Below are positions 3-64,000 of a DNA stretch of 64,000 nucleotides, one piece after another; the stretch's first letter is position 1; the number at the start of each line of letters is the position of its first letter. Below the pieces are notes generated by a model, which did no database searches, was not told where the DNA came from, and was given only the letters and a program-made list of their open reading frames with translations. Origin of the DNA: Calothrix sp. FI2-JRJ7. Its GTDB lineage: Bacteria; Cyanobacteriota; Cyanobacteriia; Cyanobacteriales; Nostocaceae. The position numbers were made by a program, and so were the translations under genes. The stretch is from contig JAHHGX010000001.1 of NCBI GenBank assembly GCA_019359675.1, positions 1-64,000 on the forward strand. Reading direction: 5' to 3'.

Positions 3-104
3 TGTAGTGAGCTAGTAAATGAGTTAATGAAATTAAATCTCAATAAACGCAAGTATTATCAACGAGGCATGAGAGCTATGAATCTTATTGAATCTATGTT
101 GTAG
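3..104 (+). CDS. C-terminal end of an unidentified gene
   Basis: An open frame enters from the left edge and stops with TAG at 102-104, leaving about 33 codons. The residues are basic and helical (for example KLNLNKRKYYQRGMRAMN). I do not recognise the family. It converges on the truncated vapC, and a GGCGCC site (103-108) begins inside its stop codon. It could equally be a chance frame; only the missing left flank can decide. Confidence 0.35.
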   Translation, partial: CSELVNELMKLNLNKRKYYQRGMRAMNLIESML

Positions 105-113
105 GCGCCTTTG

Positions 114-446
114 TCACCCCTTCAGATCATCACGAGAGCGAGCGACAGCAGCAATTAAGGCATCTAGCTCACCTGTCGGTCTACCTATTTGTTTGAGTTC
201 GCTTTGAATTTTGCCGAATTCTACAGCAGCATTTAAATCAAACGGTTCAATATCTATTAACTCTGTGAACTGCTGCAAACTTTGCAAATTTTTCTCAAAC
301 TGTCGAGAACCGTAAACTCCTTTGTAAAGTTCAGACAGTACTATTGTTGAAATATAGCACTGGCTAAAAACACGATTAAATCGAGCCATAACTTTACGAT
401 TTTCGTTTAGCAATGCAACACAAATGTTAGTATCTAATAGATACAT
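114..446 (-). CDS. PIN-domain toxin, VapC-like, apparently truncated
   Basis: The 110-residue product starts with the PIN signature LLDTNICVALLN, whose first Asp is a metal ligand. Later it has the family motif GELDALIAA, with another acidic ligand. VapC toxins are Mg-dependent RNases controlled by the antitoxin encoded just upstream. The family usually runs about 130 residues; here the final strand, with the usual Asn/Asp-rich turn and EDW-like end, is missing, and the frame stops after RSRDDLKG. The end lies six bases from a GGCGCC, so a rearrangement may have removed the tail. The start ATG overlaps the antitoxin stop by one base (TAATG), so the two are translationally coupled. Whether the truncated toxin is active is unknown. 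Confidence 0.75.
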   Translation of the reverse strand: MYLLDTNICVALLNENRKVMARFNRVFSQCYISTIVLSELYKGVYGSRQFEKNLQSLQQFTELIDIEPFDLNAAVEFGKIQSELKQIGRPTGELDALIAAVARSRDDLKG

Positions 447-733
447 TACCTGTCATCCTGATTATCCATTGAGTCTACCACCCTACCACGATAAGCATGA
501 CGTTGCTCGTCAATTTCTTCAAATATTTGTTTTAGATCAGGTTGGTCTTTCCATGCACCGAATAATTGATTTAGTTTGGCTAATCTATCTTCATCTGTTA
601 AGTTATGTTTTGTTTCATCGATTTTATTTGAAGATATTTTAAATTCTACTATAACTTCTGTTCCATCAGGCACGTTACTGATATCTTCTAGAAACTCTAT
701 AGATTGACTACGTTTAATTCCTTTAATTTTCAT
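446..733 (-). CDS. VapB-like antitoxin of the truncated PIN toxin
   Basis: This 95-residue acidic protein lies directly upstream of, and overlaps by one base, the PIN-domain toxin gene. The arrangement antitoxin first, toxin second is typical of type II modules. The N-terminal half (MKIKGIKRSQSIEF, then DGTEVIVEF) looks like the short beta-rich DNA-binding part seen in several cyanobacterial antitoxins. The C-terminal half is charged and helical, as expected for the toxin-wrapping tail. I infer autoregulation of the pair by analogy; no operator was identified. With the toxin shortened, this gene may persist only as an antidote or as a relic. Confidence 0.6.
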   Translation of the reverse strand: MKIKGIKRSQSIEFLEDISNVPDGTEVIVEFKISSNKIDETKHNLTDEDRLAKLNQLFGAWKDQPDLKQIFEEIDEQRHAYRGRVVDSMDNQDDR

Positions 734-911
734 ATAAATTTATCTCCTCAAAGATATCGACGAATTGAATTATCAACTGCTCAATTATAGCAATTGTAGC
801 GCAAAATGCCTGTTGACGTGCGGAGATATGTGGACAAAGAAAGGCGAAGCACTATCATTATTTGGTAACGATGAAGGTATTTTACAACTTTACGAGCAAG
901 TAATAGCTTAT

Positions 912-1478
912 CTAATAACCCATGAGCATCTGTAATTTATCATTGTTTTGAAATACTTTAATACTAGCAGGTGGTTTCGGGTTAGGCGCCGTTGGTTGTA
1001 GCGTTAGTCCTAACCATGTAACATCATGCCATTCGCCACATTTATATCCGGCATTTTTATAAGTACCAACGTGCTGAAAGCCTAATGATTCATGCAGGCG
1101 CATACTTGGTATATTAGGTTGTGTTACACCTGCGTATGCATTGTAATAACCTTGCAGTTTTAAGACATCAAATAAAGTAGTATATAAACTTTTTCCAATT
1201 CCCATACGTCGTGCGCGCTCATCTATATAAACGCTGACATTTACAGACCATTGATAAGCTACACGTTCATGATGCGGCGCCGCATAAGCATAACCTAAAA
1301 CTTGATTATCAGAACAATACACCAACCAGGGATACTGAAGAAGAAGTTTGGTTATACGCTGTTGCATTTCTTCAACAGTAGGCGCCGAGGTTTCAAATGT
1401 TATTGGTGATGATAGGCAAAATGGAGCGTATATGCGGAGAATAGAAGTAGCGTCATCAAGTGTGGCAAGACGAATCAT
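912..1478 (-). CDS. GNAT N-acetyltransferase, phosphinothricin/methionine sulfone type
   Basis: The 188-residue protein is a single GNAT domain. It begins MIRLATLDDATSILRIY, has the P-F/Y-T-FE-like segment SPITFETSAPTVEEM near residue 30, the acetyl-CoA loop RRMGIGKSLY (Q/R-x-x-G-x-G/A) near residue 90, and ends with the family pattern SLGFQHVGTYKNAGYK followed by WHDVTWL. These are the marks of the Pat/Bar/ArsN-like group, which acetylate small amino-acid analogues. The exact substrate cannot be read from sequence. It is a single gene with no operon partner. A short open stretch of about 35 codons on the opposite strand (828 onward) ends inside its 3' end and is not called. Confidence 0.85.
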   Translation of the reverse strand: MIRLATLDDATSILRIYAPFCLSSPITFETSAPTVEEMQQRITKLLLQYPWLVYCSDNQVLGYAYAAPHHERVAYQWSVNVSVYIDERARRMGIGKSLYTTLFDVLKLQGYYNAYAGVTQPNIPSMRLHESLGFQHVGTYKNAGYKCGEWHDVTWLGLTLQPTAPNPKPPASIKVFQNNDKLQMLMGY

Positions 1479-1753
1479 AAAAAATTAAATCATCAATATA
1501 CTTAACAAAAATGAATATTCTGTTTTTTAACTTAATTTTAAGTTATTAATGCTCAATTTAAATCAATAAATATGCGTGCTTATATTCAGATAGAATAACA
1601 TTCATCGAGTCAATGCACGTGTTTGCTTTTACTAAAGCCATCGGAGTACAAATTATGTATTTACATGTCAAAAAAGATTACAGAATTTCTTATAATAAAA
1701 AGACTTGTTTACCATCTATCTTTAGATATATTTAATATAAACATATATTTGTT

Positions 1754-2461
1754 ATGAATAACAATGATAAACCCAGTAACCCTTCAAGAAGAGGGTTTTT
1801 AGCTCAGTTTGCGGCGGCAGCAGGAGGCGCCGTTGCTCTTCCATCGTTAGTTCAAGCGACTCAAGACAAAACTACTGTAAAGGTTGGAATGGGAGAAGTA
1901 CCTGTTAATTTGAATATTAATGGTAATAAATATACCCTATCAATTGAGCCGCGTGTGACTTTGCTTGATGCTTTACGCGAACGGTTAAAACTTACAGGTA
2001 GCAAAAAAGGCTGTGACCACGGGCAATGCGGCGCCTGTACAGTAATGATTGATGGACAAAGAGTTTATTCGTGTTTATCTCTGGCTGTAATGCAGGAAGG
2101 TAAACAAATTACGACTATTGAAGGTTTAACTCAAGGTAATAATTTGCACCCAATGCAAGTGGCTTTTATTGAAAATGATGGTTTTCAGTGTGGATATTGT
2201 ACTCCAGGTCAAATTTGTGCTGCTGTCGCTTTAATTGATGAAGTGAAGCGCGGTTGTGTGAGTGTGGTTACAGAAAAGTTAGCTGGAACCGAACAATTAA
2301 CTAATCTTTCTGAGGCTGAAATTCGTGAACGGATGAGTGGTAATTTGTGTCGTTGTAGTGCTTACAACGGTATTGTTGCGGCAATACAGCAAGTTGCTGG
2401 TACTACGCCACCTTCACCTTCAGCATCGATAATGGTACAGGGTCAGGAGGGTTTGGCATGA
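1754..2461 (+). CDS. paoA: Aldehyde oxidoreductase-type molybdoenzyme, [2Fe-2S] subunit (PaoA/YagT-like)
   Basis: The 235-residue protein is the small iron-sulfur subunit of a xanthine oxidase-family enzyme. A twin-arginine signal (SRRGFLAQFAAAAGG, residues 12-26) should send the folded complex across a membrane by Tat. The plant-type [2Fe-2S] cluster is bound by CDHGQCGACTV near residue 88, the second cluster by CGYCTPGQIC and the closing CRC. The gene is first of three, and its stop overlaps the next start (ATGA). Family knowledge: PaoABC oxidises aromatic and other aldehydes in the periplasm. The substrate here is inferred, not shown. The upstream 275 bp is very AT-rich and no clear promoter was identified. 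Confidence 0.88.
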   Translation: MNNNDKPSNPSRRGFLAQFAAAAGGAVALPSLVQATQDKTTVKVGMGEVPVNLNINGNKYTLSIEPRVTLLDALRERLKLTGSKKGCDHGQCGACTVMIDGQRVYSCLSLAVMQEGKQITTIEGLTQGNNLHPMQVAFIENDGFQCGYCTPGQICAAVALIDEVKRGCVSVVTEKLAGTEQLTNLSEAEIRERMSGNLCRCSAYNGIVAAIQQVAGTTPPSPSASIMVQGQEGLA

Positions 2462-3441
2462 AGAATTTTACTTATACACGCGCGACTTCGATAAAAGATG
2501 CGGCACGTAGACCTGAAAAATCACTGCTTATAGCTGGTGGTACTAATTTAGTTGACCGCATGAAGGTGTTTCTTGACCAGCCTACTCAAATTATCGATAT
2601 TTCTCGACTTGATTTAAAGAAGATTGAAAATACTGGTAATGGGTTACGTTTAGGCGCCCTTGTTACAAATACCCAAGTAGCAGACAATTTGGAAGTACGG
2701 AAAAATTATCCGATTTTATCAAGGGCAATATTAGCAGGAGCATCACAGCAAATTCGTAATGTTGCTACTGTCGGTGGAAATCTGATGCAGCGAACTCGTT
2801 GTCCTTATTATTATGACACAGCATTTGGTTGTAATAAGAGACAGCCAGGAAGCGGGTGTCCAGCAGCGACGGGAATAAACCGGATGCACGCAATTTTGGG
2901 AGCAAGCGATACATGTATAGCTGTAAACCCATCTGATATGTGTGTGGCATTAAGTGCTTTGGATGCAGTAGTTGAAGTTGAAGGGGTTAAAGGTAGGCGC
3001 CAAATTCCTTTTAGTGATTTTCACCGTTTACCAGGTAATCAGCCTGAACGTGATACTACACTTGGAGATAATGAAATTATTACTGCTGTAATTTTACCAG
3101 CAAATATCAATGCTCAATCGGGAGTGTATTTGAAATTGCGTGACCGTGCTTCGTATAGTTTTGCACTAATTTCAGTCGCTGCAATTCTTGATATAGATAA
3201 TAACAAGGTTCGTAACGCGCGCATCGCTTTAGGAGGTGTAGCTCATAAACCTTGGCGTTCAAAAGAAGCAGAGCAATTTTTGATTGGTAAAAGTGTTGAT
3301 GAAAGTGTGTTTCAACAAGCTGCTGACTTAGCACTTCGTAATGCTCAACCATTGGAGCATAATAAATTCAAAGTTGAAATGAGCAAACGGGCAATTCGTC
3401 GCGCGTTGATGGTATCAGCAAAAGGAGGTGGGGTAGCATGA
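2458..3441 (+). CDS. paoB: Aldehyde oxidoreductase-type molybdoenzyme, FAD subunit (PaoB/YagS-like)
   Basis: The 327-residue protein is the FAD-binding middle subunit. Near residue 25 it has LLIAGGTNLVDRMK and around residue 100 NVATVGGNLMQRTRC, the two flavin-contacting loops of the CO-dehydrogenase flavoprotein family. The segment CPYYYDTAFGCNKRQPGSGC adds closely spaced cysteines that match the extra [4Fe-4S] cluster known from PaoB and not found in ordinary xanthine dehydrogenases. It overlaps the genes on both sides by four bases, so all three subunits should be made in step. It has no signal of its own and would be exported bound to the Tat-bearing subunit. Confidence 0.88.
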   Translation: MKNFTYTRATSIKDAARRPEKSLLIAGGTNLVDRMKVFLDQPTQIIDISRLDLKKIENTGNGLRLGALVTNTQVADNLEVRKNYPILSRAILAGASQQIRNVATVGGNLMQRTRCPYYYDTAFGCNKRQPGSGCPAATGINRMHAILGASDTCIAVNPSDMCVALSALDAVVEVEGVKGRRQIPFSDFHRLPGNQPERDTTLGDNEIITAVILPANINAQSGVYLKLRDRASYSFALISVAAILDIDNNKVRNARIALGGVAHKPWRSKEAEQFLIGKSVDESVFQQAADLALRNAQPLEHNKFKVEMSKRAIRRALMVSAKGGGVA

Positions 3442-5537
3442 GTAAAATGGGAACTTCGGTTAGTCGTAAAGATGGTGTTGCTAAAGTTACTGGCACTGCG
3501 ACTTATTCAGCCGAACATCAACTATCTAATTTAGTTCATGGATATGTTGTAACATCAACTATTGCTAGTGGTCAAATTCAGCGTATTGATATTAGTGAGG
3601 CAACTAAGGCGCCTGGAGTTCTTGCGGTATTTACGCATTTAAATGCACCAAAGGTATTTAAGCCCAAATCAAAGATTTACGAAGCTCGTTTACCTTTATC
3701 TGATAATCAAGTTCATTACGCAGGGCAAATTATTGGGCTTGTAGTTGCTGATACATTTGAACGTGCGCGCGATGCAGCATTCCGTGTCAAGGTAGATTAT
3801 AATCCTCAAACTCTTGTTATTGATGCAACTAAAGCTAACTTTAAAGAGGCGCCACCAAATTTTGGTGAGGAAATGAAGTTTACTACAGGTGATGTAGCTT
3901 CGGGAATGGCAAAGGCAACCGCCAAAGTTACTCAAACTTATAAATCTTCTACAGAACTTCATGCTCCAATGGAACCTCACGCCATTATTGTAGATTGGCA
4001 CTCTGGTGATGGAGCGACAATATATGAGCATACTCAATGGGTTTTAGGGTCGCAGCGTACCTACGCAGAATTACTAGGTATATCAGCAGAAAAAGTACGA
4101 ATAATTAGTCCGTATATAGGTGGTGGTTTTGGTTCCAAAGCTTTCCCTTGGTCACATGCTATTCTTTGTGCAGCAGCAGCAAAAGAAATTAAACGACCAT
4201 TGAAAGTTGTTTTAAGTCGGCGCCAAATGACTGCTTTGGCTGGACATCGTTCTGAAACCGAGCAAATTATTCGCTTAGGCGCCAATAAAGAAGGCATAAT
4301 TACAGCTATTGACCATGAAGTTAAATCATTAACATCACCTGTAGATGTTTTTACAGAACCTTGCACAAGTATTACCCCCGTTATGTATAAAACGGATAAC
4401 TTGCGGTTAATGCAGGAACTAGCGGTGATGAATGTGGGAGTGCCAACTTTTATGCGGGCGCCAGGTGAAAATCCGGGAATGTGGGCATTAGAATCAGCTA
4501 TGGATGAACTCGCATGGAACCTTAAAATTGACCCTGTAGAGTTGCGGCTTAAAAACGAAACTAAAATCCATCAGCGTAAAAAACTTCCTTTTAGTGCCAA
4601 ACACTTTGATGACTGTCTCAAAGTAGGCGCCGAAAAGTTTGGTTGGGAAAACCGAGCTAAAGAACCGCGCGCTACAAGCCGTGATGGTAAATTAATTGGA
4701 TGGGGAATGGCGGCAGCAACTTTTCCTGGTTTACGTGGTAATGCTTCTGTTAAAGTTCGTTTGTTAAGAAGTGGTACAGCACATGTTTTAACTGCTGGAA
4801 ATGACATGGGGACTGGTGCTTATACAGTAGCAGCAATAATTGCCGCTGAAGCTTTACAAATACCAGTAGAAAAAATTCGTGTTGAACTTGGTGACTCACG
4901 ACTTCCTGATGGAGGGTTGGCGGGTGGTTCGATGATGAGTGCATCAATGGCGCCTGCTATAATGGCAGCATGTCAAGAAGTCCTAAAACAAGCAAAAGCC
5001 AAAACAGCCCAAGAAGCATTTGCACTACTTGAAAAATCTGGTGGCGCCGCATTTGAAGCAACAGCATCATCTAAGCCTGGAGAAGAAAGTAAGAAATTTG
5101 CCTTTCAATCATGGGGCGCCCACTTTTGTGAAGTCGCTATTGATGAAACTATTGGAAGGTTGCGTGTAACTCGTTGGCTTTCAGTAATGGATATAGGAAG
5201 AGTTATCAACGCCAAAACAGCAGCAAGTCAAGTACGTGGTGGTGTGATAATGGGTATTAGTCATGCCTTAATGGAAGAATGTCACTTCGACCCTAATATT
5301 GGTTATCCAGTTGTTTATGATTTAGCAACATATCACTATGCAGCACACGCCGATATTCCTCGTATTGAAGTAGCATTTGTTGGGGAACCTGATATTAACT
5401 TTAATCCTGCTGGAGTTAGAGGAGTTGGTGAAATTGCTATTACAGGTGTTTCTGCTGCAATAGCAAATGCTGTATATCATGCCACAGGTAAACGATTACG
5501 AAGTTTACCATTAACACCAGATAAATTATTGGCATAA
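3438..5537 (+). CDS. paoC: Aldehyde oxidoreductase-type molybdoenzyme, molybdopterin subunit (PaoC/YagR-like)
   Basis: The 699-residue catalytic subunit carries the Mo cofactor. It starts with SRKDGVAKVTGTATYSAEH, the usual N-terminus of domain a/b hammerhead, then the molybdopterin domain with GGGFGSKAFPW near residue 228 and FMRAPGENPGMWALE near 340. Near the C-terminus AGVRGVGEIAITGV supplies the family's active-site Glu. The usual length is about 730, so it looks complete. It is the last gene of the operon. A GGTGGGC/GCCCACC hairpin follows the stop and may end the transcript against the converging hypB. PaoC-type enzymes use the cytosine-dinucleotide form of the cofactor; the needed chaperone and cytidylyltransferase are not in this window. 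Confidence 0.88.
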   Translation: MSKMGTSVSRKDGVAKVTGTATYSAEHQLSNLVHGYVVTSTIASGQIQRIDISEATKAPGVLAVFTHLNAPKVFKPKSKIYEARLPLSDNQVHYAGQIIGLVVADTFERARDAAFRVKVDYNPQTLVIDATKANFKEAPPNFGEEMKFTTGDVASGMAKATAKVTQTYKSSTELHAPMEPHAIIVDWHSGDGATIYEHTQWVLGSQRTYAELLGISAEKVRIISPYIGGGFGSKAFPWSHAILCAAAAKEIKRPLKVVLSRRQMTALAGHRSETEQIIRLGANKEGIITAIDHEVKSLTSPVDVFTEPCTSITPVMYKTDNLRLMQELAVMNVGVPTFMRAPGENPGMWALESAMDELAWNLKIDPVELRLKNETKIHQRKKLPFSAKHFDDCLKVGAEKFGWENRAKEPRATSRDGKLIGWGMAAATFPGLRGNASVKVRLLRSGTAHVLTAGNDMGTGAYTVAAIIAAEALQIPVEKIRVELGDSRLPDGGLAGGSMMSASMAPAIMAACQEVLKQAKAKTAQEAFALLEKSGGAAFEATASSKPGEESKKFAFQSWGAHFCEVAIDETIGRLRVTRWLSVMDIGRVINAKTAASQVRGGVIMGISHALMEECHFDPNIGYPVVYDLATYHYAAHADIPRIEVAFVGEPDINFNPAGVRGVGEIAITGVSAAIANAVYHATGKRLRSLPLTPDKLLA

Positions 5538-5538
5538 A

Positions 5539-5563
5539 GTATGGTGGGCACTGCCCACCTTAC
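5539..5563. repeat. GGTGGGC hairpin repeat, copy 1
   Basis: The perfect stem GGTGGGC-ACT-GCCCACC (5543-5559) sits between two converging genes, paoC and hypB. Two more copies occur at 40023-40042 and 44684-44708, all in intergenic DNA, so this is a dispersed hairpin family rather than a one-off terminator. It could still stop transcription in both directions here. Confidence 0.7.
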
Positions 5564-5573
5564 CCTATCTAAA

Positions 5574-6401
5574 TTACTGGCGTAACCAATTATACCAATC
5601 ATTCAAACCTTCACCTGTTTGTGCTGAAACTTGAAAAACCTTAATTTGTGGATTTACTTGACGCGCGTATTCAATACATTTTTCTATATCAAACTGTACA
5701 TAAGGTAGCAAATCAAGTTTAGTGATAATCATTATCTGACTAGCACGAAACATGTGAGGGTATTTAATTGGCTTATCTTCTCCTTCCGTGACTGAGAGAA
5801 TTACAACTTTGGCATTCTCACCCAAATCAAATAATGCAGGGCAAACAAGATTACCCACATTTTCAATCATCACAACAGAATTTAGGGATGGTTTTAGCTG
5901 TTGTAAACCCTTATCAATCATTCCTGCATCTAAATGACAGCCTGTTCCGGTATTAATTTGTACAACCTTGCAACCAGTCTCTTGGATTTTTTGAGCATCA
6001 TTAATCGTTTCTTGGTCGCCTTCAATAACGCTGATTTCTAATTTTTGCTTTAAATCTTTGATAGTGCGGGTAAGTAGAGTTGTTTTCCCGGCGCCTGGTG
6101 AACTCATCAAATTTAAAGCTAAAATATTTCGTCCCTTGAACCAACCACGATTTTGAGCCGCAAGTAAATTATTCTTTGCTAAAATATCAGCTTCTAACGA
6201 TATTGTTGTATTGTGAACTTGGGCATGAATATGAGCAGGTTTAGGATGTGTATGTTCATGTTCATGATGATGGGTATGAGTAACAACAGTACCATCAGGT
6301 AAAACATGAGTATGATGATGGTGATAATTATCATCATGAAGCGAATCAACCATAGTAACCTTTACATAGACATCATCCGAACAGCCACAAGTAACACACA
6401 T
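5574..6401 (-). CDS. hypB: Hydrogenase/urease nickel-insertion GTPase HypB
   Basis: The 275-residue protein is the G3E-family GTPase that loads nickel into [NiFe] hydrogenase precursors. It opens with MCVTCGCSDD, the CxxCGC high-affinity metal site. Residues about 25-62 form a histidine-rich stretch (HHHHTHV, THTHHHEHEHTH), a nickel store. The GTPase core follows, with Walker A GAGKTTLL near residue 108, the switch segment IENVGNLVCPA, and ITKLDLLPY for guanine recognition. It lies five bases behind hypA on the same strand, so the pair is co-transcribed. hypC, hypD and hypF are not in the window; the other part of the pathway present is hypE, 1.1 kb upstream. Confidence 0.95.
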   Translation of the reverse strand: MCVTCGCSDDVYVKVTMVDSLHDDNYHHHHTHVLPDGTVVTHTHHHEHEHTHPKPAHIHAQVHNTTISLEADILAKNNLLAAQNRGWFKGRNILALNLMSSPGAGKTTLLTRTIKDLKQKLEISVIEGDQETINDAQKIQETGCKVVQINTGTGCHLDAGMIDKGLQQLKPSLNSVVMIENVGNLVCPALFDLGENAKVVILSVTEGEDKPIKYPHMFRASQIMIITKLDLLPYVQFDIEKCIEYARQVNPQIKVFQVSAQTGEGLNDWYNWLRQ

Positions 6402-6406
6402 AAATC

Positions 6407-6733
6407 TTATATCTCAATTTCTTTTATTTTTAATTCTTCACCAGCAATTACATTTAACTCAGTACAACCACACGTACATCGACCAAAAGGTTTTTCAAGT
6501 AAAATTTGTGTACCGCAGTTGCGACAACTCGCCAAACCAGGTATCTCTCTAATTTGCAACAAGGCACCTTCTAAAACAGTTCCCTGCGAGCAAATATCAA
6601 AACAAAATTTAATTGCATCCGGTAAAATTGCCGATAACTTACCAACTTCTAATAAAACACGCTGCACTTTCTTTCCTTCAGCATGTTCAGAAACAATCGC
6701 TACAATATTTTGAGTAATACTTAACTCATGCAT
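6407..6733 (-). CDS. hypA: Hydrogenase nickel metallochaperone HypA
   Basis: The 108-residue protein begins MHELSITQNI, whose His2 is the family's nickel ligand. A zinc-binding loop follows from residue about 70: CRNCG, then CTCGC, two CxxC-like pairs. HypA works with HypB to insert Ni into the hydrogenase large subunit. The length is typical (about 113). It is the first gene of a hypA-hypB unit. The dispersed repeat GTAGGTTGGGT (6741-6772) starts eight bases upstream of the start codon, so the native promoter or leader has probably been altered by repeat insertion. Confidence 0.95.
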   Translation of the reverse strand: MHELSITQNIVAIVSEHAEGKKVQRVLLEVGKLSAILPDAIKFCFDICSQGTVLEGALLQIREIPGLASCRNCGTQILLEKPFGRCTCGCTELNVIAGEELKIKEIEI

Positions 6734-6740
6734 AACTAAT

Positions 6741-6772
6741 GTAGGTTGGGTGGAACGTAGTGGAACCCAACA
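6741..6772. repeat. Dispersed GTAGGTTGGGT repeat, copy 1
   Basis: The unit GTAGGTTGGGT...GGAACCCAACA forms a weak inverted repeat just upstream of hypA. A second copy lies at 48971-49007. This type of repeat is widespread between genes of filamentous cyanobacteria. Confidence 0.65.
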
Positions 6773-6790
6773 TTTATATTAAGTTATTTT

Positions 6791-7118
6791 TTAACTGTAA
6801 AATGGCTTCTGTGCTTCGTGAGAACAAGCATTTAGTTCATCTAAAAATAAACAGTACGGTTCTGAGCTAGCAATTATCTTTGGCGGACAGAAGCGACTGG
6901 TTCCATCTATAATTTGTGGTACACCGATTAAATCTTAGTCGCGCCAGTTGACTACCAAGTAATGAAACACATGGTATTCCTACTTGACGGGCAAACTCTT
7001 CTACTTCATATGATTTGCCTATTCCAGGCGCCCCCCAAATAAAAACTGGTCTTACTACAGCCACATTCAACAGAAACTCGGTTAGTTGTTTTCGGGTAAG
7101 TGCAATTACTGGGTTCAT
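6791..7118 (-). pseudogene. Broken MoxR-like AAA ATPase
   Basis: The first 60 codons read as a MoxR-type AAA+ ATPase: NPVIALTRKQLTEFL, then the Walker A FIWGAPGIGKSYEVEEF. After GSQLA the frame is lost. A net insertion of one base near 6944-6952, where the family has PEDL(I/V)GVP, puts the continuation in another frame. That frame still reads GVPQIIDGTSRFCPP, then the Walker B segment CLFLDELNACSHEAQK, and stops with TAA at 6791-6793. So the gene is both frameshifted and cut to about a third of the usual length. It lies between hypA and a small gene on the other strand, with no partner left. A sequencing error cannot explain the early end as well. Confidence 0.8.
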
Positions 7119-8604: not shown

Positions 8605-8619
8605 AGAATAGCAGGACAA

Positions 8620-10890: not shown

Positions 10891-12615
10891 ATGTCATTAA
10901 TTTGTAATACAAATGAACTGTGGGCTTTTGTCCTTGTCGAGACTCTAAAAAGGTTAGGGTTGACTTGTGCTGTAATTTGTCCAGGTTCTCGCTCGACTCC
11001 TTTAGCTGTTGCGTTTGCACTTCATGCGCCTACAATAGAAGTGATTCCTATTCTCGATGAACGTTCAGCAGGATTTTTTGCATTAGGAAGAGCAAGAGTG
11101 ACAAAAAAACCTGTGGCAGTTGTTTGTACTTCTGGAACAGCAGGAGCAAATTTTTATCCTGCGGTGATTGAAGCGTTTGAAAGTTGTGTACCGTTATTGT
11201 TACTGACTGCTGATAGACCGCAAGAATTACGCTTTTGTCACTCTGGACAAACTATCGACCAAGTAAAGTTATACGGTAATTATCCCAACTGGCAAGCCGA
11301 ACTCGCAATTCCTGGCGCCACATTAAATTTACTAACATATTTAAGGCAAACAATAATTTATGCATGGGAGCGTTGTTTATCTCCTCAACCAGGGTTAGTA
11401 CATTTAAATATACCGTTTCGCGACCCTCTAGCCCCTGTTTCAGATGGTATTGATTTAACTAGCTTACAGTCAGAAATAAATAGCGAAGATTTTTGGCGCC
11501 AACCTTTACCCCTTTCATCCTTACCCCTTACTTCTTACCCCTTCCCCCTTCCCCCTTCTTCGCGTGGTATTATTATTGCTGGAATTGCTCAACCGCTTAT
11601 AGACGACCAATATTGTAATCACATTGCTCTTCTTGCACGCGCTTTAAATTATCCTGTATTGGCAGAAGGACTTTCTCCCGTTCGTAACCACGCTGATTTA
11701 AATTCCTATATAATCTCTACTTACGACTCAATTCTTCGTAATGCTGATTTTAGAGAAAAGCTTGCACCCGAATTTGTCATCCTTATAGGTGAAATGCCAA
11801 CTAGCAAGGAGCTACGAACTTGGTTACAGCAAACCCAACCGCAGTTACTAATCATCGATAAAAGCTTTCGCAATCTTGATTCGCTGCACTTAAGAACTTC
11901 ACACCTACGGGTAGACATTTGCGAATTGAGCGAATTTCCGACGCTACCAACTACTACTTACCTTGAAGATTGGCGCCATATTGAAACGAAAACCCGCATA
12001 AGACTCGATAAAACTTTTGAACAAATCAGCGAGATGCTTGAATGTAAAGCAGCTTGGTTACTTTCACAGATACTACCACCAAAAACACCCTTATTTATTG
12101 CCAACAGTATGCCTGTACGTGATATTGAGTTTTTCTGGAAACCCAATAATCTTGGTATTAAAGCATTTGTTAACCGAGGCGCCAATGGTATTGATGGTAC
12201 ATTATCTACAGCTTTAGGAGTAGCTCACCGTAATCAAAGTAGTGTTATGCTAACAGGTGATTTAGCTTTGCTGCATGATACAAACGGGTTTTTGATTAGA
12301 AAAAAGTTTATAGGTCATTTGACAATTATTTTAATTAATAATAATGGGGGTGGTATTTTTGAAATGTTACCAATTTCTCAATTTGAGCCACCATTTGAAG
12401 AATTATTCGCCACTCCCCAAGATATTGATTTTGGCAAACTCTCTGCTACATATGATATTGAACATGAAATAATTACATCATGGAATTTATTAAAAGAAAA
12501 ATTAAATCCATTACCCACATCAGGAATACGCATTTTAGAAATACAAACAAACCGTAAACATGATGCAAAATGGCGTAAGGAAAATTTAGGAAAATTCGCT
12601 AATAATATTGATTAG
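10891..12615 (+). CDS. menD: SEPHCHC synthase MenD
   Basis: MenD is the ThDP-dependent enzyme joining 2-oxoglutarate to isochorismate, the first committed step of menaquinone/phylloquinone synthesis. Phylloquinone is the photosystem I electron carrier. Motifs include CPGSRSTPLAVAF near residue 30, CTSGTAGANFYPAVIE near 80, RGANGIDGTLSTALG near 425, and the ThDP/Mg motif GDLALLHDTNGF near 455. The length of 574 fits. One oddity: residues about 207-225 are a Leu/Pro/Ser-rich linker encoded by a pyrimidine tract (11509-11561) that looks like a repeat inserted in frame. It lies 20 bases upstream of the LOG gene, with which it likely forms a unit. Confidence 0.95.
   Translation: MSLICNTNELWAFVLVETLKRLGLTCAVICPGSRSTPLAVAFALHAPTIEVIPILDERSAGFFALGRARVTKKPVAVVCTSGTAGANFYPAVIEAFESCVPLLLLTADRPQELRFCHSGQTIDQVKLYGNYPNWQAELAIPGATLNLLTYLRQTIIYAWERCLSPQPGLVHLNIPFRDPLAPVSDGIDLTSLQSEINSEDFWRQPLPLSSLPLTSYPFPLPPSSRGIIIAGIAQPLIDDQYCNHIALLARALNYPVLAEGLSPVRNHADLNSYIISTYDSILRNADFREKLAPEFVILIGEMPTSKELRTWLQQTQPQLLIIDKSFRNLDSLHLRTSHLRVDICELSEFPTLPTTTYLEDWRHIETKTRIRLDKTFEQISEMLECKAAWLLSQILPPKTPLFIANSMPVRDIEFFWKPNNLGIKAFVNRGANGIDGTLSTALGVAHRNQSSVMLTGDLALLHDTNGFLIRKKFIGHLTIILINNNGGGIFEMLPISQFEPPFEELFATPQDIDFGKLSATYDIEHEIITSWNLLKEKLNPLPTSGIRILEIQTNRKHDAKWRKENLGKFANNID
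11509..11561 (+). repeat. Pyrimidine-rich tract inserted in frame in menD
   Basis: CCTTACCCC/CTTCCCC-like units follow one another inside menD and encode a low-complexity Leu-Pro-Ser stretch between the first and second MenD domains. The tract differs sharply from the surrounding codon use. It resembles the short tandem repeats normally seen between cyanobacterial genes. Confidence 0.6.
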
Positions 12616-40760: not shown

Positions 40761-40977
40761 TTAGATAATTGACAAATTTATGTACACGGTAGAATCTGAG
40801 CGTAGGGATTCGCGATATTCACGTCCTAGCTTCATAGCTTCATCATACATTGAGTCATTCGCAGAACGTAACAGTTACTTTTAACTCAACATTAGATAAT
40901 CCGATAGGAATATTTAGATATAAAATACCATCTTCCGCAACATGATATTATTTAGTTACAGTGTTTATAGAGGTCAT
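40761..40977 (-). pseudogene. Broken antitoxin-like gene behind the DUF262 gene
   Basis: The ATG overlaps the DUF262 stop (ATGA), as in a coupled operon. The frame reads MTSINTVTK, an in-frame TAA, then YHVAEDGILYLNIPIGLSN and ends at TFCE. One base shift later it continues as NDSMYDEAMKLGREYRESL to a stop at 40761-40763. The first part resembles a cyanobacterial antitoxin type (EDG-L-L-IP-G pattern). Both a stop and a frameshift argue against simple sequencing error. No toxin follows. The family assignment is tentative. Confidence 0.5.
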
Positions 40978-42814
40978 ACACTAATATTTTCGTAATCATC
41001 TGAGTTATCTTCATATTCTACCAATTCAATATCATCAGGTTCAGTCTCTTGTTCTATATTAATATTACATAGAGAAGATTTACCCATAGCTTTTTCAATT
41101 TTTTCCAAAAGTAACTTTTGTCGAGAATGCAAAAAATTATCAAAATCATCTTGGCGTAGAAGCTTGGGTTCAATAAGATGTGTTTGTAAAAACTTATCAA
41201 TATGAGCTTCTGTAACCCCAGCTTCATTTTGAACTTTCGGTAAGTAAATACTTGGAGCTTTACCTCCAATCATACGGTTAGTTCTTGCTGAAATAGGAGT
41301 TTTATTTAAAATGCAATCCCAAAGTTTAGCGTCAATTCCTTGCCCTTTACACCAATGCTGCGGAAATATATGATGAATATCTATCTTATCATCAAAATAT
41401 ATTTCAGTATCTATTGGGCAGCCTGTACGAAAATCAACACTACCATTATGGAGTAGTAAAGCAAACAAACCTTTATAAGCTGCACTGTTGCGTGTACGTA
41501 AACTTAAAAGACGACCTGGTGCAAAATTAGCACTTGTAATAGTATCTGGCTCAGAACCGTCATTGACCCATACTAAAACTTCCTGTAAATCTTTAGCGAG
41601 CCGCGTTTCTATGGCGCCGCTATATAGTTCTCCAAAAACGCCACACCAGTACCAACGTGCTAATTTTGAGCTTACTCCTGCGTTATCTGCTTGCTTCCCT
41701 AATATTGCGAAAATTGCAGCCAGTGCAGTAAGTTGAGGTCGATATGGCAAATCTCTTGCTGTAAATATTTTTAGGGTGTGGAGTAACTTTGCAGCTTTTT
41801 CAAAACCTCTTGTAACTGCTTCATTCCAATTTTTGTACTCATCGAGGGTTAATTTTAAGATATCTTTACGAGTACAGCTTACAGCGCCATGAGGCAAACG
41901 CTCTTTTGTCACAACCAAACTTACAGCTTGTAAAAAATCTGTGTTTTGAAGATTTTCCAAGACTTTGAATTGTTTGAGTTTCTTTTCGCGTTTATCCCAA
42001 TCCTCTCGCAAATTAAATTCATCGGCAGCATAAGTGGCTGTTAATAGTTCAAAAACAGTAAGAAAAACACCTCCTGTGTTTACCTTCTCAAAAACCTGAC
42101 AAACTGCTTCCCTAGGTGTTTCTTTCGATAACTCAATAATTGGTACTTGATATTGCTGGTAAGGTTGAATTACCTCTTGACAGAAATTAGTCCAGCGCGT
42201 AAGACGTTCTGGCATATTACTAGGGTCAAGTTGCAAATATTCTTGCATCCACTGATTTTGCCCTAAAGTGTCAAATACAAGATTCAGCGGGAAAACTTCT
42301 GAGCTACACTCATTTTGAGTAGACGAGTAATCAGCAATAACTTCACCACGGAAATTTTTTAAAATCTTATCGCTTGGTACACTAATAATTGCATCTTCTC
42401 GGTCAGCATTTTCTGAAAGCGCTTTACCAATATCCACATAATACCAACGCTCAGTTTGTCTACCGCGCGTATCTCTGGTTTTTACTGAGTTAGAACAAAA
42501 AAGCACTTGAAACAGTGAAGTTATACGCTGTTGTCCATCTAAAATTAAAGATTCCGGTGTTGGCATTGTACCAAGTGAAACACCTTCAAGCACACGAGAT
42601 GCTTAAATTTGACAGCAGGATTACCCGTCTCAAGCATCATAACTGCTCCAATCGGGTAAGATAAAGAAATACTAGCTAGTAAAGAACATATTTGTTCGTC
42701 ATTCCAAACCCAGCTACGCTGAAAATCTGGTAGTTGAGTTTTACCTTCCTTTGTGTTTTCTAGTATTTGCCGGATAGATTTTGTGATGCTTCGAGTACTG
42801 GTAATTGTTGGCAT
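40974..42814 (-). pseudogene. Frameshifted DUF262/DUF1524 (GmrSD-type) nuclease
   Basis: Two frames together encode one protein of about 610 residues. The N-terminal part (42814 down to about 42595) starts MPTITSTRSITKSIRQILENT and has LPDFQRSWVWNDEQI, the DUF262 start. After the shift, at 42592-42600, comes ILDGQQRITSLF, the DGQQR motif of the ParB-like fold. The C-terminal DUF1524 HNH-type domain has DIHHIFPQHW and NRMIGGKAP. GmrSD-type enzymes cut modified phage DNA using nucleotides. A net change of one base breaks the frame, so the gene is inactive unless read through. The NERD-helicase gene lies 130 bases upstream on the same strand. Confidence 0.85.
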
Positions 42815-45254: not shown

Positions 45255-48200
45255 TTATGCGCTGAAGTATTTGGCTACTGGGTGATAAGTGATAATAGCT
45301 GTTGTACTTTGTTCTGGGTACAATTGCTCACTTTCATCGATGTGCATCTTAATACGTTCGGCGCCTAACAATTGAAGCTGTTTATACTGGTCTTGGATAT
45401 TAGGACAAGCTGGATAACCAAAGCTATACCGTGAACCTTGATATCTTTGTGCGAGCATATCGCGAATATTATCAGGCTCTTGTGCTGCAAACCCTAACTC
45501 ACGACGTATTCTAGCGTGTGACCATTCGGCTAATGCTTCTGCTATTTGCACTGCCATACCGTGGAAATACAGATAATCTGTGTATTGATTATCTTTATAT
45601 AGCTTTTGTGCAAACTCTGTTGCGATTTCTCCAACTGTCACGGCTTGCATCGGAAATACATCAATAATACCCGTTTCCTTGGGTGCAAAGAAGTCGGCTA
45701 TACATAAACGGCGCCCAGAACGTTGACGAGGAAATTCAAATTCGGCAACCTGTTGCCCATGATTATCTGGGTTGTATATATATAGTGTATTTCCTTCTGC
45801 ATTACAGGGGAAATAGCCATATAAAACCTGTGGGTGCAGCAAGCTCTCTTCAACGATGCGCGCTTTCCATTTTTCAAGGATAGGATAAACCTTCTCTTGT
45901 AGGAAAGCTTGATATTCTTCTTTGCTTTGTTCTTTAGGTTTGCGGAACTGCCATTGTCCTGCTACGAGTGCTTGTAAGTCTAGATGCCAGAATATTTCAT
46001 CCCAAGGAATATCACCATTTTGTAGTAGTTTTGTTCCCCAAAATGGTGGTGTGGGACGTTCGATGTTTATATCGACTGCTTCGGAACGACAGGTGTCTTT
46101 TTCTTTTGGTTCTTCGGGTTTTTTCTTGGCATCCTCTTCTTCTTTAAGCGCATTTCTGCCTACTTCGTTCTCGCTGGCATATTCTCCTAAGAACCCGTTA
46201 ATATCATCCCATTGTGTAGATGCTTTGGCGGGCATGAGTTTGTCCATGAAGTGCAGGTCAGAGAAAGCGTCTTTGCCGTATACGACTTTACCTTTATAGG
46301 CTTTTTGGCAGTCTTCGTAAACAAACTTGGGTGTTAAGGCGGCGCCTCCTAATATTACAGGTACAGTGATGCCTTTTTCATTGAATATTCCCAAGTTTTC
46401 TTTCATGAACGCCGTGGACTTAACGAGTAAGCCACTCATCGCGATACAATCGGCTTTGTATTTGTTGTATGCTTCGATGATATTCTCTACAGGTTGTTTA
46501 ATACCCAGGTTTATTACCCTGTAACCGTTGTTCGACAAGATAATATCTACTAGGTTTTTGCCGATGTCGTGAACGTCTCCTTTGACTGTGGCAATAATAA
46601 ACGTTCCTTTGCCACTGTTTGCATCCTCAGTTTCGCTTTTCTCCATGAATGGTTCCAGGAAAGCTACTGCTGACTTCATGGTTTCGGCGGATTGTAGTAC
46701 AAATGGTAGCTGCATTTGTCCGGAACCGAATAACTCACCTACTACTTTCATGCCGTCAAGCAAGAAAATATTGATAATGTCTAAAGCTGGGTGTTTTAAG
46801 AGTGCCTGTTTGAGAGCATCTTCTAAACCTATGCGCTCACCGTCAATAATATGACGTTTGAGACGCTCTTCAACTGGGAGATTTTCGTCAACACCTTTTT
46901 CGCGTTTGGTTGTTACCCCTTCAAATAAGGTAGTGAGTATTGTGAGAGGGTCATATACACAGATGTCATTTTCAAATTTGCGATTATCATAAATTAAATC
47001 GCGGCAAATTTCTTGATGCTTGGCTTCAATCTTCGCAAGCGGTAATATTTTATTGGGGCTGACAATTGCTCCATCCATTCCTACTTGCATTGCTTCATGT
47101 AGGAACATTGAGTTTAATACTATCCGCGCGGCTGGATTTAAACCGAAGGATATATTCGATACACCAAGCATAAAGTGACAACCAGGTAAATTCTCACGAA
47201 TTCTCTTAATTGCCTCTATTGTTGCCTTTCCGTTTTCTCTATCTTCTTCAATACCAGTAGAAACAGGTAGAGCTAAGGTATCAAAGAATATTTCGTGTGC
47301 AGGTATACCATATTCAATCACTGCACGATAGGCACGCTGGGCTATTTCAAATTTCTTATCAGCGGTGCGCGCCATTCCTTCTTCGTCAATTGTACCAATA
47401 ACTACTCCGGCGCCGTATTTCTTAGCGAGTTCCAATACTTTAAAGAATCTTTCTTCGCCGTCTTCGTAGTTGGTAGAGTTGAGAATGCACTTACCACCCG
47501 CAACTTTCAATCCTGACTCCATTTTTTCCCATTCGGTCGAGTCAAGCATTAAAGGCAAGTTTACATTATTAACAATGCGGGATACTAACTCGTGCATGTC
47601 GCGCACACCGTCGCGTCCTACATAGTCTACGTTAACATCCAGAATGTGGGCACCTTCTTTAACTTGTGCGCGTGCCATCGACACAAGTCCATCCCAGTCT
47701 TCTGCATTAAGCATTTCGCGGCATTTCTTAGAGCCGCTGGCGTTGAGCCTTTCTCCTACAATTAAGAAAGAATTATCTTGAGTGTAATTTTGTGTGCTGT
47801 ATATAGACGCTGCCGCAGGTTCTAAATGTGGATGACGTTCAGCAGGTTTAAGATATGAAGCTATTTCTGCAAGCTGTTGAATATGCGCCGGTCTTGTCCC
47901 ACAGCAACCCCCTATCACTTGGACACCCAGGTCTTCAACAAAATGCATTAATGACATCCGCAGTTCCATTGGCGTAAGCTTATAATGCGCTTGTCCACCA
48001 ACGTTTTCGGGTAAACCCGCGTTTGGCACACACGAAACTATAAACGGCGAATGCTCCGATAAATACTTGATGTGTGGTTTCATCAAGTCGGGGCCTGTCG
48101 CGCAGTTCAAACCAAGAATATCTATTTTATACGGTTCCAAAATAGTGACAACGGCATTAATTTCCGTTCCTACTAGCATTGTCCCCATTGTTTCCATCGT

Positions 48201-48785
48201 TACAGAAACCATTATCGGGCGCCTGTCACCTTTTTTGGCGAACACTTCTTCAACAGCATTAAGTGCAGCTTTAATTTGCAGCACGTCTTGGCATGTCTCA
48301 ATAATAAACAAATCTACACCACCATCCCAAAGCGCCGAAGCTTGTTGAGCAAAAGCATCTTTCATTATGTCGTAGTCGATATGTCCCAATGTTGGTAACT
48401 TAGTACCTGGGCCCATCGAACCAGCAACAAAACGAGGTTTCTCTGGTGTCGAATATTGCTCAGCACAACGTTTCGCTAGTTCTGCTGCCGTTTTGTTGAG
48501 GTAATAAACTTTATCTTCCAGGTTATACTCAGCAAGTACGGTAGATGTACCACCAAAAGTATCTGTTTCGATAACATCGGCGCCTGCTGCTAAAAAGTCA
48601 CGGTGAACTTTTGCCACCGCTTCGGGGTTCGTATGAACAAGGTACTCGTTACAGCCCTCGTACTCGGCGCCGCCAAAGTCATCAGCAGTAAGGTTTTGTG
48701 ATTGTAAGTTCGTACCCATCGCACCGTCAAACACTATGACCGGACGGTTGGGACTATGCAAGTGTTCGAGAAAGGAATTAGGCAT
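45255..48785 (-). CDS. metH: Cobalamin-dependent methionine synthase MetH
   Basis: The 1176-residue enzyme transfers the methyl of methyltetrahydrofolate to homocysteine. The homocysteine domain comes first, with zinc ligands Cys228 (LGLNCATG) and Cys294-Cys295 ([10 protein letters not shown]). The pterin-binding domain follows ([25 protein letters not shown]), then the B12 domain with [10 protein letters not shown], whose His is the lower Co ligand. The C-terminal part carries a reactivation-like domain with an acidic Lys/Glu-rich linker ([15 protein letters not shown]) between. The length is close to normal (about 1180-1230). No cobalamin riboswitch was recognised in the 320 bp upstream. 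It is monocistronic. Confidence 0.97.
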
Positions 48786-52489: not shown

Positions 52490-52495
52490 CTTGCG

Positions 52496-57380: not shown

Positions 57381-57543
57381 CTTACTAGAGTTAATGTACT
57401 ACATACTTAAGAACGGTAGGCTGGAAATAGTTGCAATGTTAATCAGTAATATCTTGTGGGAACACTATATTAAGCGCGACTGGTACTGCCACTTTTAATT
57501 AAACATAGTATTACCAAATGGCGCCTTCTTAAATTTTACTCAT

Positions 57544-58716: not shown

Positions 58717-58860
58717 TGCGAACAAAATACTTCTACCTCGAAATCTTCTAACCCTGTAATGCGACTTTTCAAAAAATAAATTATTAAATCTATCTTAATT
58801 CGAATTTTTTAACTTCTGAAGGCACAACTAATTATTGTGCCTCTAAAACTTAAATAATTA

Positions 58861-59384: not shown

Positions 59385-59524
59385 AAGTTTTCCTGCATCT
59401 GTTTGAATATAACACGTCTATTATACCCCGTTGATTTTTTGGAGAACGTCAGCAAGCAAGTTTGTTAGTAAGTTGCCTTTTATTACTAAATTTTTATATT
59501 GGGCGCCATAATAAAAAGAATCAA

Positions 59525-59552
59525 TGGGCGGGCAGGGATGCCCGCTCCACAA
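59525..59552. repeat. GGGCGGGCAGGGATGCCCGCTCCAC repeat
   Basis: GCGGGCA/TGCCCGC arms with the tail CCACAAGA lie just after chlN. A related copy at 50089-50119 forms the tail of the WD40 remnant. Confidence 0.6.
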
Positions 59553-59583
59553 GATTTGTTACATAGTAAAGATTAAGATTTGT

Positions 59584-61037
<1,454 letters not shown>

Positions 61038-61057
61038 ATGTTTACAACTCCTAACTC

Positions 61058-61085
61058 GTACAGACGCGATTAATCGCGTCTCTAC
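61058..61085. repeat. GTACAGACGCGATTAATCGCGTCTCTAC palindrome
   Basis: This near-perfect palindrome (AGACGCGATT core) lies 14 bases after the DUF5331 stop. It belongs to the GTAGAGAC-type hairpins seen at 17948 and 29277. Confidence 0.75.
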
Positions 61086-61098
61086 CAACTCCTAACTT

Positions 61099-61860: not shown

Positions 61861-61889
61861 ATAGCCCCATCCCGAAAAGAAATAATGAT

Positions 61890-62756
61890 TTATACAATCA
61901 TCAAGTCTAATTGCTCTTCCGGATTAGTGACTGCGGGTTTACCCGGATTTAAGTAAAAATCTGATAACAAAGAGAATAAATCTCTATCTTGAGCATCGTT
62001 AGGCACAACTCCTTCCGGACGCGCTAAAATTTGGTCGGCGATGCTGAGATAGTAGTCACACACGTAATTTAACGAGGGGTCATGTTCTGCCATCTCGAAT
62101 AATGTTTTACCTTTAACACGCGAAACGCGAATGTCTTCTATCAATGGCAAAACTTCCAAAACTGGCATGGGCACTGCTTCGATGTACTTCTCTATCAAAT
62201 CCCGCTTGCTGGTACGATTACCAATCAACCCTGCTAAACGCAATGGGTGGGTGCGGGCTTTTTCACGTACCGAAGCAGCAATGCGATTAGCTGCAAACAA
62301 TGCGTCAAAACCGTTGTCTGTAACAATCATACAGTAGTCAGCATAGTTTAAAGGCGCCGCAAAACCACCACAAACTACGTCACCAAGAACATCAAACAAA
62401 ATGACATCGTATTCATCAAAGGCATTCAGTTCTTTCAGTAATTTCACTGTCTCCCCAACTACGTAACCGCCACATCCCGCGCCTGCTGGTGGCCCACCTG
62501 CTTCAACACAATCTACACCACCGTAACCCTTATAAATTACATCCTCGGGCCAAACGTCTTCGTAGTGATAGTCTTTTTCTTGCAGTGTATCAATTATTGT
62601 TGGAATTAAGAATCCAGTTAGAGTGAATGTACTATCGTGTTTTGGGTCACAGCCTATTTGTAATACCTTTTTACCCCGCTTGGCTAGGGCGACAGAAATA
62701 TTACAACTAGTTGTAGATTTACCGATGCCACCTTTTCCATAAACTGCTAGTTTCAC
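61890..62756 (-). CDS. chlL: Light-independent protochlorophyllide reductase iron-sulfur ATPase
   Basis: The 289-residue ChlL is the NifH-like reductase of the dark pathway. It has the P-loop [15 protein letters not shown] and two cluster ligands, Cys95 (AGAGCGGY) and Cys129 (LGDVVCGG). I chose the GTG at 62754-62756, giving VKLAVYG, where the family normally has MKLAVYG; an AGAGG lies seven bases upstream. The frame continues 43 codons further to a TTG, but no ATG occurs in that extension, and its residues ([15 protein letters not shown]) are not part of the family. It is first in the chlL-DUF5331-chlN unit. Confidence 0.95.
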
Positions 62757-63119
62757 GTCTTTACCTCTTAATTCTTGTTTATAAAACTTTGTGTCTTGAA
62801 GCTTTGATGGTTCATGAGTGTCATTATTGTTCAATTCACTCAGGAAATAAAGAGACTTGCTCTGTGAATAGTAGTCTAATTCCAAGTGCTTGTACTCATT
62901 CGCTTCTCTTTTGTCACATATCTTCTTAAATTAAGCGAATAAGGTTACAAAATGTTTTTAAAGTATCTTTATATTATGTATTTTATAAAAATAGTTACAA
63001 TAGACAAAATCGTAAAGCCCGTAACATAAAAGCCTTTTAGACTTATATATTTGGGATGATAGTGTGGGTAATAGTGATGAGAATGCAGTGAGTGTAAATA
63101 ATTATCACAATTAATCTGA
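62757..63119. other. Leader of the chlL operon
   Basis: The AT-rich region upstream of the GTG start includes the in-frame extension of chlL (to 62885) and should contain the operon promoter. I could not place a -10/-35 pair with confidence. Confidence 0.5.
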
Positions 63120-63386
63120 CTAGCCTGCTCCCAGTATTTCTTCATCTGCGCCTATGTCTTCCAGAGTTTGCCAACCTGGGCGCCAAAGTTCTTGGTCTTG
63201 TAATATTGCTGCGTTAGTCCAGAACCGAACGTTCGGGTCACAAGATGAAACCATTTCGGCATAAACCCATTTTCCCTGGTTTTTACGGTTGACAACTTCA
63301 AAATGGCGCCAACCATCAACTTTTTTTTGTGCCGTCCATTTTGAACCGAGTAAATACGGAAACTTTTGTTTTTTTGATTTAGGCAT
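63120..63386 (-). CDS. TIGR02450 Trp-rich protein
   Basis: The 88-residue protein is a small Trp/Lys-rich domain: FPYLLGSKWTAQKKVDGWRHFEVVNRKNQGKWVYAE, and LWRPGWQTLED near the C-terminus, which fits TIGR02450. Members occur in cyanobacteria and some proteobacteria with unknown function. The protein is cytosolic and monocistronic. The start ATG is at 63384-63386. Confidence 0.9.
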   Translation of the reverse strand: MPKSKKQKFPYLLGSKWTAQKKVDGWRHFEVVNRKNQGKWVYAEMVSSCDPNVRFWTNAAILQDQELWRPGWQTLEDIGADEEILGAG

Positions 63387-63578
63387 AATTACTTAAATTT
63401 TGGCTCAAAAATTTTATTAATAAATATTAAGTATTATTAATTATAGTAAAGAATGGTCGCTATGCGGGTGGGCAATCACCACTAAAGAAAATTTAGATAT
63501 ACACAAACAATATATAAGTTAAGCACTAGAGGTTGATTATTAGGTACGATAACTGCGATATCTATTTCTGTGCCGTTT

Positions 63579-64000
63579 ATGAGCAGTTCCCCTACCACTT
63601 TAAAAGTTTCTTCTGAATCTACTACAGTTAACTGGTCTTCATTACTTCAACAAATTCTCGACCATCAATCATTATCGCGCCAACAAGCTGTTGAGTTGAT
63701 GCAGGGCTGGTTGAACGAAGCTATACCCCTAGAATTATCAGGAGCAATATTAATTGGACTTCAAGCCAAGGGTGTGTCTTGCGACGAATTAGCAGGAATG
63801 GCGCAGGTGCTACAATCTCTGTCGGTGAGCGAAGGGTCAATAGAAGCTACAACTACTCCTTTAATTGATACTTGTGGCACTGGAGGTGATGGCGCCTCTA
63901 CATTTAATATTTCTACGGCGGTAGCATTTGTTGCAGCAGCGGCAGGTGTGCGAGTTGCTAAACATGGTAATCGCTCCGCATCAAGTCGAGTTGGCAGCGC
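63579..64000 (+). CDS. trpD: Anthranilate phosphoribosyltransferase TrpD, N-terminal part
   Basis: The frame starts with ATG at 63579 and runs to the window end (about 140 codons). It reads [20 protein letters not shown], then [19 protein letters not shown], the GTGGDGxxTFNIS motif that binds PRPP, and [13 protein letters not shown]. This is TrpD, which transfers the phosphoribosyl group to anthranilate in tryptophan synthesis. The rest lies beyond the right edge. The first 20 residues ([14 protein letters not shown]) are a variable leader. Confidence 0.97.

Follow-up and report, generated by a model that had tools for sequence, protein, structure and literature searches.

Does a palindrome other than the highly iterated palindrome (HIP) known as HIP1, GCGATCGC, fill the genome of Calothrix sp. 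FI2-JRJ7, and if so, what holds it there? The question is raised by positions 1 to 64,000 of contig JAHHGX010000001.1 (hereafter the window, all 64,000 nucleotides of it), in which the hexamer GGCGCC is strongly over-represented and HIP1 is missing. Our results showed that the exchange of HIP1 for GGCGCC is genus-wide, and we consider it probable that GGCGCC is the alternate HIP of the Calothrix/Dulcicalothrix genus, most likely as the word that an orphan M.BsaHI/M.HindV-type methyltransferase chiefly targets in the genome, with sites that are held yet leaking. This methyltransferase family is labeled X in this report, and a second C5 methyltransferase family is labeled Y. Sequence comparisons thus suggest that a lone DNA-methylating enzyme may mark GGCGCC, and that the copies now present, although partly protected, are slowly being lost.

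The swap itself is already published for this genus, in Calothrix PCC 7103 (Elhai 2015, PMC4390886). That study drew on one genome and 19 kb of another, and described exceptional HIPs as sporadic and not persisting in clades. It was the only work on GGCGCC or iterated palindromes in Calothrix found in the literature that we searched. Persistence across the genus, a common orphan methyltransferase without an RE_HindVP nuclease, and the substitution pattern described below are additions, none of which was found in that literature.

GGCGCC is abundant throughout the genome

An exact count gave 117 GGCGCC sites in the window (104..63896; both coding and noncoding DNA), a 34-fold excess over the 3.4 expected from base composition at 38.9% GC, and not a single HIP1. 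The initial annotation of this DNA had reported about 115 sites versus about 4 expected, likewise without HIP1, and its coordinates (103-63895) were correct within one base, the first site lying at 104 and the last at 63891-63896. GGCGCC was the top six-base palindrome by count. A maximal-order Markov model predicted 61 sites, an excess of only 1.9-fold, which is low because the GGCGCC sites also raise the counts of GGCGC and GCGCC.

The proposal that GGCGCC stands in for HIP1 genome-wide was confirmed by counts over the 8.66-Mb assembly (91 contigs), which contains 14,889 GGCGCC (1.72 per kb, equal to 1,719 per Mb or about one per 600 letters) versus 31 HIP1; neither a GGCGCC ratio near 1 nor abundant HIP1 was seen anywhere in the genome. 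The mirror control, CCGCGG, occurs 8 times. Other words of the GRCGYC class are under-represented in this genome (GGCGTC, 0.17-fold; GACGCC, 0.42-fold; GACGTC, 0.08-fold).

For finer analyses we used a 284-kb reference set, consisting of the window and 220 kb of contig C20 from the same genome, which contains 505 sites (33.5-fold over composition). Within open reading frames (ORFs) of at least 100 amino acids, the sites fell 210, 86 and 119 times in the three coding frames, and their density was 1.94 per kb within ORFs versus 1.28 per kb outside. An artefact of codon usage or composition was ruled out, as sites occur in all frames and in noncoding DNA, and none was present in 120 kb from four genomes of the sister genus. 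Spacing was irregular (coefficient of variation 1.11), with a mild shortage of intervals below 50 bases (0.044 versus 0.085 expected), and the idea of a set-point spacing was dropped on account of this irregularity.

The substitution for HIP1 is shared by the genus

GGCGCC was counted in 60 genomes, and HIP1 across the order in 291. The genus is represented by seven genomes: that of the window (G000), the metagenome-assembled genome Calothrix C42_A2020_038 (G001), Calothrix PCC 7716 (G002), Calothrix NIES-4105 (G003), Dulcicalothrix desertica PCC 7102 (G004), Calothrix sp. PCC 7103 (G005) and Calothrix HK-06 NIES-2101 (G006). All seven are rich in GGCGCC, with 7,475-20,380 copies each at 1.15-1.72 per kb, the lowest density being that of G001. 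Elsewhere in the family, 29 genomes of other genera contain 3-530 copies each. HIP1, present 31 times in the genome of the window, numbers 1,285-6,835 in 28 further genomes of this family. The lineage shift to GGCGCC that the initial annotation proposed is therefore real, but it is not recent, being common to all seven genomes, and it had been described before (Elhai 2015, PMC4390886).

The parallel with the alternate HIP of PCC 7103 is close: the word and the genus are the same, HIP1 is absent, GATC is avoided, a GRCGYC methyltransferase is present (here by homology), and the other GRCGYC words are depleted. By the features that Elhai uses to recognize an alternate HIP, HIP1 is low or absent here, another GC-rich palindrome occurs within about 500-2500 copies per Mb (1,719), and a methyltransferase predicted by homology to be able to methylate GGCGCC is encoded (X). 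Unlike that single case, seven genomes share GGCGCC, so that it persists across the genus; for this word, they speak against sporadic-only occurrence. GGCGCC resembles HIP1 in being dense, genome-wide, palindromic, GC-rich and tied to methyltransferases, and differs from it in the word itself.

Two further sets of genomes were considered as swaps and rejected. Genome G094 (9,489 GGCGCC, HIP1 74, X present) is not an independent second switch, as GGCGCC is only 5.6-fold over-represented in it, behind the non-palindromic words CGGCGC/GCGCCG (7.8-fold) and GGCGCT/AGCGCC (6.8-fold) that lead in a 91-kb sample. Five genomes of family f9 (G043, G072, G095, G201 and G224), with 1,031-3,403 GGCGCC, retain HIP1 at 2,362-15,293 copies, and CGATCG is the top palindrome in G043 and G201, the two that were sampled.

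Other departures from the usual pattern were also seen. HIP1 is scarce in the whole genomes of G094 (74 copies) and G191 (59 copies), and 20 kb of the latter (L196) showed the non-palindromic GGGCGC/GCGCCC at 34-fold and GGCGCT/AGCGCC at 18-fold. G169 has GCCGGC at 10-fold over composition (52 kb, L193-L195) and 81 HIP1 in 6.6 Mb, resembling the rCCGGy alternate HIP of Oscillatoria PCC 10802. Within the genus, contig C3 of G003 (L143, 11 kb) has 3.6 GGCGCC per kb, about double the density of the chromosome; samples of five other smaller contigs have 1.6-1.9 per kb, and 3.6 kb of contig C2 of G005 has 0.28 per kb.

Avoidance of GATC can explain the loss of HIP1

GATC was 12- to 14-fold under-represented in samples of G000, G002, G004 and G005 (observed/expected 0.07-0.08), with ratios of 0.12 in G003 and 0.26 in G001; four genomes of the sister genus gave 0.68 over 120 kb. 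Because HIP1 contains GATC and this word is strongly avoided, the absence of HIP1 needs no other cause. Thus, where the initial annotation had taken the missing HIP1 as part of the shift to GGCGCC, GATC avoidance can explain it at least as simply as replacement. CGATCG was about 6- to 12-fold under-represented in the samples of G000, G002, G004 and G005. A GATC nuclease has been reported in Calothrix PCC 7103 (Elhai 2015, PMC4390886), and the shortage of GATC in these four genomes is consistent with it.

A candidate methyltransferase without a detected nuclease partner

Clustering of PF00145 matches in the seven genus genomes yielded 68 ORFs (loci L095 and L107 gave none), among which X, with main copies of 313-331 amino acids, is encoded in all seven. 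Its C5 methyltransferase domain is whole (PF00145, 223 bits, residues 13-304 of 313). G001 and G004 have a single X, and the other five genomes have extra copies or fragments. The X slot adjoins the same gene cluster in all seven (by Pfam, the single member tested is RuBisCO-like), although the G006 copy in this slot is interrupted by contig ends. A second cluster lies near X in six genomes; its single tested member is an S-layer/GHL10 protein, and the genome of the window has a 172-amino-acid S-layer-domain piece of it.

Among the 291 genomes of the order, 68 have X-like genes, that of the window included, with 54-73% identity outside it (E values up to 1e-45). Of 48 loci with X homologues that were examined outside the genus, 33 have beside the homologue a family of about 366 amino acids, whole or in pieces, which Pfam identified as RE_HindVP in five of five members tested; overall, Pfam found RE_HindVP, whole or in pieces, in 48 of the 67 X-bearing genomes outside the genus. 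At the sensitivity of Pfam, RE_HindVP was found in none of the seven genus genomes, nor in G094, so that no complete GRCGYC restriction-modification system with a cognate RE_HindVP nuclease was seen in the genus.

PMC2413257 states that R.BsaHI, HgiDI and HgiGI are HindVP homologues recognizing GRCGYC, that M.BsaHI methylates the central C of this sequence, and that HindVP itself and a Crocosphaera relative were inactive as nucleases when tested. In addition, GRCGYC appears in PMC8565308 as an m5C motif of Haemophilus influenzae Rd, the home of HindV. Like M.BsaHI and M.HindV, X has a C5 domain and its homologues often adjoin RE_HindVP. Compared by eye, an Arg 11 residues and a Gly/Ala 10 residues before a TI pair in X resemble the Arg (eleven) and the Gly/Ala (nine) given for M.BsaHI, the latter being one residue off. 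It departs from that family in that the seven genus genomes are without a detected RE_HindVP gene. Most likely, X is a GRCGYC methyltransferase left without its nuclease. The GGCGCC methyltransferase anticipated in the initial annotation is therefore matched by an encoded family, although the target predicted for it is GRCGYC rather than GGCGCC specifically.

Within genera, X-bearing genomes had fewer GGCGCC (permutation over 20 genera and 112 genomes, p = 0.013, or 0.0026 without G094). The association was mixed, with 11 of the 20 genera lower by at least 0.2 log units and 9 flat or higher.

Other enzymes of the genus were noted in the same searches. Family Y (L133:5282-6391 and its orthologues) was examined at four loci and has a RecO gene cluster nearby in each (RecO by Pfam in one tested). 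A C5 methyltransferase of 658 amino acids (L145:173-2146) is present in five of the seven genus genomes; in G004, G005 and G006 it is no more than about 3 kb away from X.

Losses of GGCGCC outnumber gains and are mostly inner C-to-T changes

To follow individual sites, the 284-kb reference was aligned to G005, G004 and G002 (about 94% identity), giving 162,584 hexamer windows aligned in all four genomes. GGCGCC was present in four, three, two and one of them at 244, 89, 44 and 21 positions, respectively, versus 378, 221, 166 and 381 for other all-GC hexamers; these distributions indicate that losses of GGCGCC outnumber gains. There were 89 losses in one species against at most 21 one-species presences, 5 of which had the other three genomes alike. 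Inner C-to-T changes (GGCGCC to GGTGCC or GGCACC) made up 54 of the 89 losses, with 11 outer and 2 middle transitions, an excess that would be expected if the inner C were methylated.

Polarization with outgroups gave the same direction. In the smaller part that aligned to G003, 15 terminal losses were confirmed versus 3 gains, with 7 three-of-four sites that were absent from G003 left unpolarized; with G001, the corresponding numbers were 5, 2 and 10. An apparently raised rate of synonymous gain (3/7) was dropped on inspection, as one event had no GGCGCC in the focal species and another was better read as losses, because outgroup G001 also has GCG at the codon; one gain remains.

Starting from sites in the four close genomes, we found GGTGCC in 4-10% of cases at 5-7% divergence, in 7-9% in G003 and in 5-8% in G001. 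As this share is flat with divergence, the GGTGCC state does not accumulate. Multiple changes rose from 2-7% to 17-21% in G003 and 37-41% in G001. In the reverse direction, sites of G003 and G001 showed multiple changes in the four close genomes in 10-15% of cases, which would follow either from heavier site loss in those two lineages or from gains on the stem of the close group.

A Vsr-like correction of T:G mismatches was ruled out, since no Vsr endonuclease gene (PF03852) was found in the 60 genomes, those of the genus included, and GGTGCC (1.18-fold) and GGCACC (1.35-fold) are not depleted in the genome of the window.

Pooled synonymous changes that destroy sites are suppressed, inner C-to-T excepted

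We compared changes at four-fold degenerate positions of the sites with matched controls in the four-genome alignment. Inner transitions occurred at the background rate (30/501 versus 235/3669, p = 0.77). Other transitions, pooled, were 6-fold rarer than controls (6/644 versus 260/4710, p = 5.5e-9), and transversions were 4-fold rarer (7/1145 versus 208/8379, p = 6.5e-6). When the context rule was relaxed, GGCGCC in frame had changed at its last base in 10/514 cases versus 71/829 for GCC after other codons (p = 1.9e-7), and the lowest three of 11 codon pairs tested were GGGCGC, GGCGCC and TGGCGC, that is, the site and the pairs that can be its second frame. Because synonymous change outside the putatively methylated cytosine is suppressed, we read these data as protection of the site. 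Taken together, these patterns are most simply read as an inner C that would be methylated and fast-mutating, within a site that would be protected by selection or by a repair process, two sources that sequence data cannot separate. The genome-wide selection or repair bias invoked in the initial annotation was thus borne out as measurable protection at some positions, but the polarizable branches lose sites faster than they gain them, and an ongoing increase was not shown.

Weighing of the explanations

Our proposed explanation is that GGCGCC was amplified in or before the ancestor of the genus, that HIP1 would have been removed through GATC avoidance, and that the GRCGYC nuclease was presumably lost. 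In GRCGYC, the base methylated by X would be the central cytosine. Existing GGCGCC would then be held by a force directed at the site, either weak purifying selection or biased repair, that suppresses most site-destroying changes except inner C-to-T, where raised deamination of 5-methylcytosine would offset the protection; the outcome would be a slow net decay of sites through this leak. We suggest, with less assurance, that the alternate HIP is functional and not a by-product, methylated GGCGCC perhaps being kept genus-wide by selection or site-specific repair while leaking by deamination. Our best guess at a function is that methylated sites mark the chromosome throughout for proteins of repair or of the nucleoid, along the lines of Elhai's proposals for HIPs.

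Several points weigh against this explanation. The specificity of X is predicted from homology, and C5 family Y (370-398 amino acids) is also encoded in all seven genomes, as is an N4/N6 methyltransferase, judged from matching scores of unaligned sequences. Elsewhere, X homologues accompany depletion of GGCGCC on average, which means that X alone does not make sites. The excess of losses over gains is not expected from a stationary selection balance. Furthermore, the suppression comes from C6 (2/327) and C5 (0/129), G1 (3/95, p = 0.80) and G2 (1/93, p = 0.18) alone being indistinguishable from control. Inner transitions are at background, so a raised mutation rate that offsets protection must be assumed. 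Finally, the substitution evidence comes from four genomes and a 284-kb reference.

In the ratchet proposed by Elhai, mismatch repair directed by G-methyl-C retains mutations that create GGmCGCC, and sites accumulate to roughly one per kb as a by-product, the word itself having no selected function. We regard this as unlikely here. It does account for the favoring of GGCGCC over GACGTC, since the predicted methylated central C is preceded by G only in GGCGYC words, and the observed density of one to two sites per kb agrees with it. It also finds support in the synonymous rate, which is highest more than 1 kb from a site (40/564), but this bin comprises 6 genes, one of which supplies 270 of the 564 positions. 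From 7 to 1000 bases the rate was independent of distance (0.045-0.052), being slightly lower at 1-6 bases (0.042), and a per-gene comparison gave no significant correlation (Spearman -0.11, p = 0.22, 131 genes). Few gains were observed, and G001 and G004 keep many sites with one X each, so that a second copy, critical according to Elhai, is unnecessary for maintenance.

Less likely again is that the sites are relicts of a past burst of creation, with no present function and plain decay now. The 89 one-species losses versus at most 21 presences (221 and 381 for other all-GC hexamers) and the confirmed terminal losses versus gains (15 versus 3 with G003, 5 versus 2 with G001) are what plain decay would give. 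However, once inner C-to-T is set aside, synonymous changes that destroy the site are, when pooled, 4- to 6-fold less frequent than in matched controls, and synonymous positions only 7-30 bases from a site change at the usual rate. We consider a signal for DNA uptake or recombination, similar to uptake sequences or Chi, highly improbable. Known uptake sequences do have a density comparable to that of GGCGCC here, but the flanks of the 505 sites, read on both strands, are not conserved (none of ten positions exceeds 0.046 bits), and the spacing has no regularity (coefficient of variation 1.11).

Genes of the window

The statement in the initial annotation that sites lie in conserved genes held for menD and metH, both consistent with Pfam matches. 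The menD-like ORF (10891..12615, plus strand; 574 amino acids, two TPP-enzyme domains) has 4 GGCGCC, at 11314, 11495, 11972 and 12178. The metH-like ORF (45255..48785, minus strand; 1176 amino acids, five methionine-synthase domains) has 7. Pfam also recognized a GmrSD N-terminal domain in the ORF at 40974-42593 (minus strand); the GmrSD name comes from nucleases acting against modified DNA.

Significance

An exchange of HIP1 for another word is one of few natural experiments on the function of HIPs. As seven genomes share the swap, X and the lack of RE_HindVP, the gain and loss of sites can be traced with matched synonymous controls. Selection maintaining HIP1 was reported by Xu, Lawrence and Durand (2018), as cited in PMC6604393. 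Should the protection of the outer positions of GGCGCC prove real, the word is of importance to the cell; if this is true, the selection reported for HIP1 would extend to its replacement, and the pattern of substitution would serve as an evolutionary assay pointing at the methylated base.

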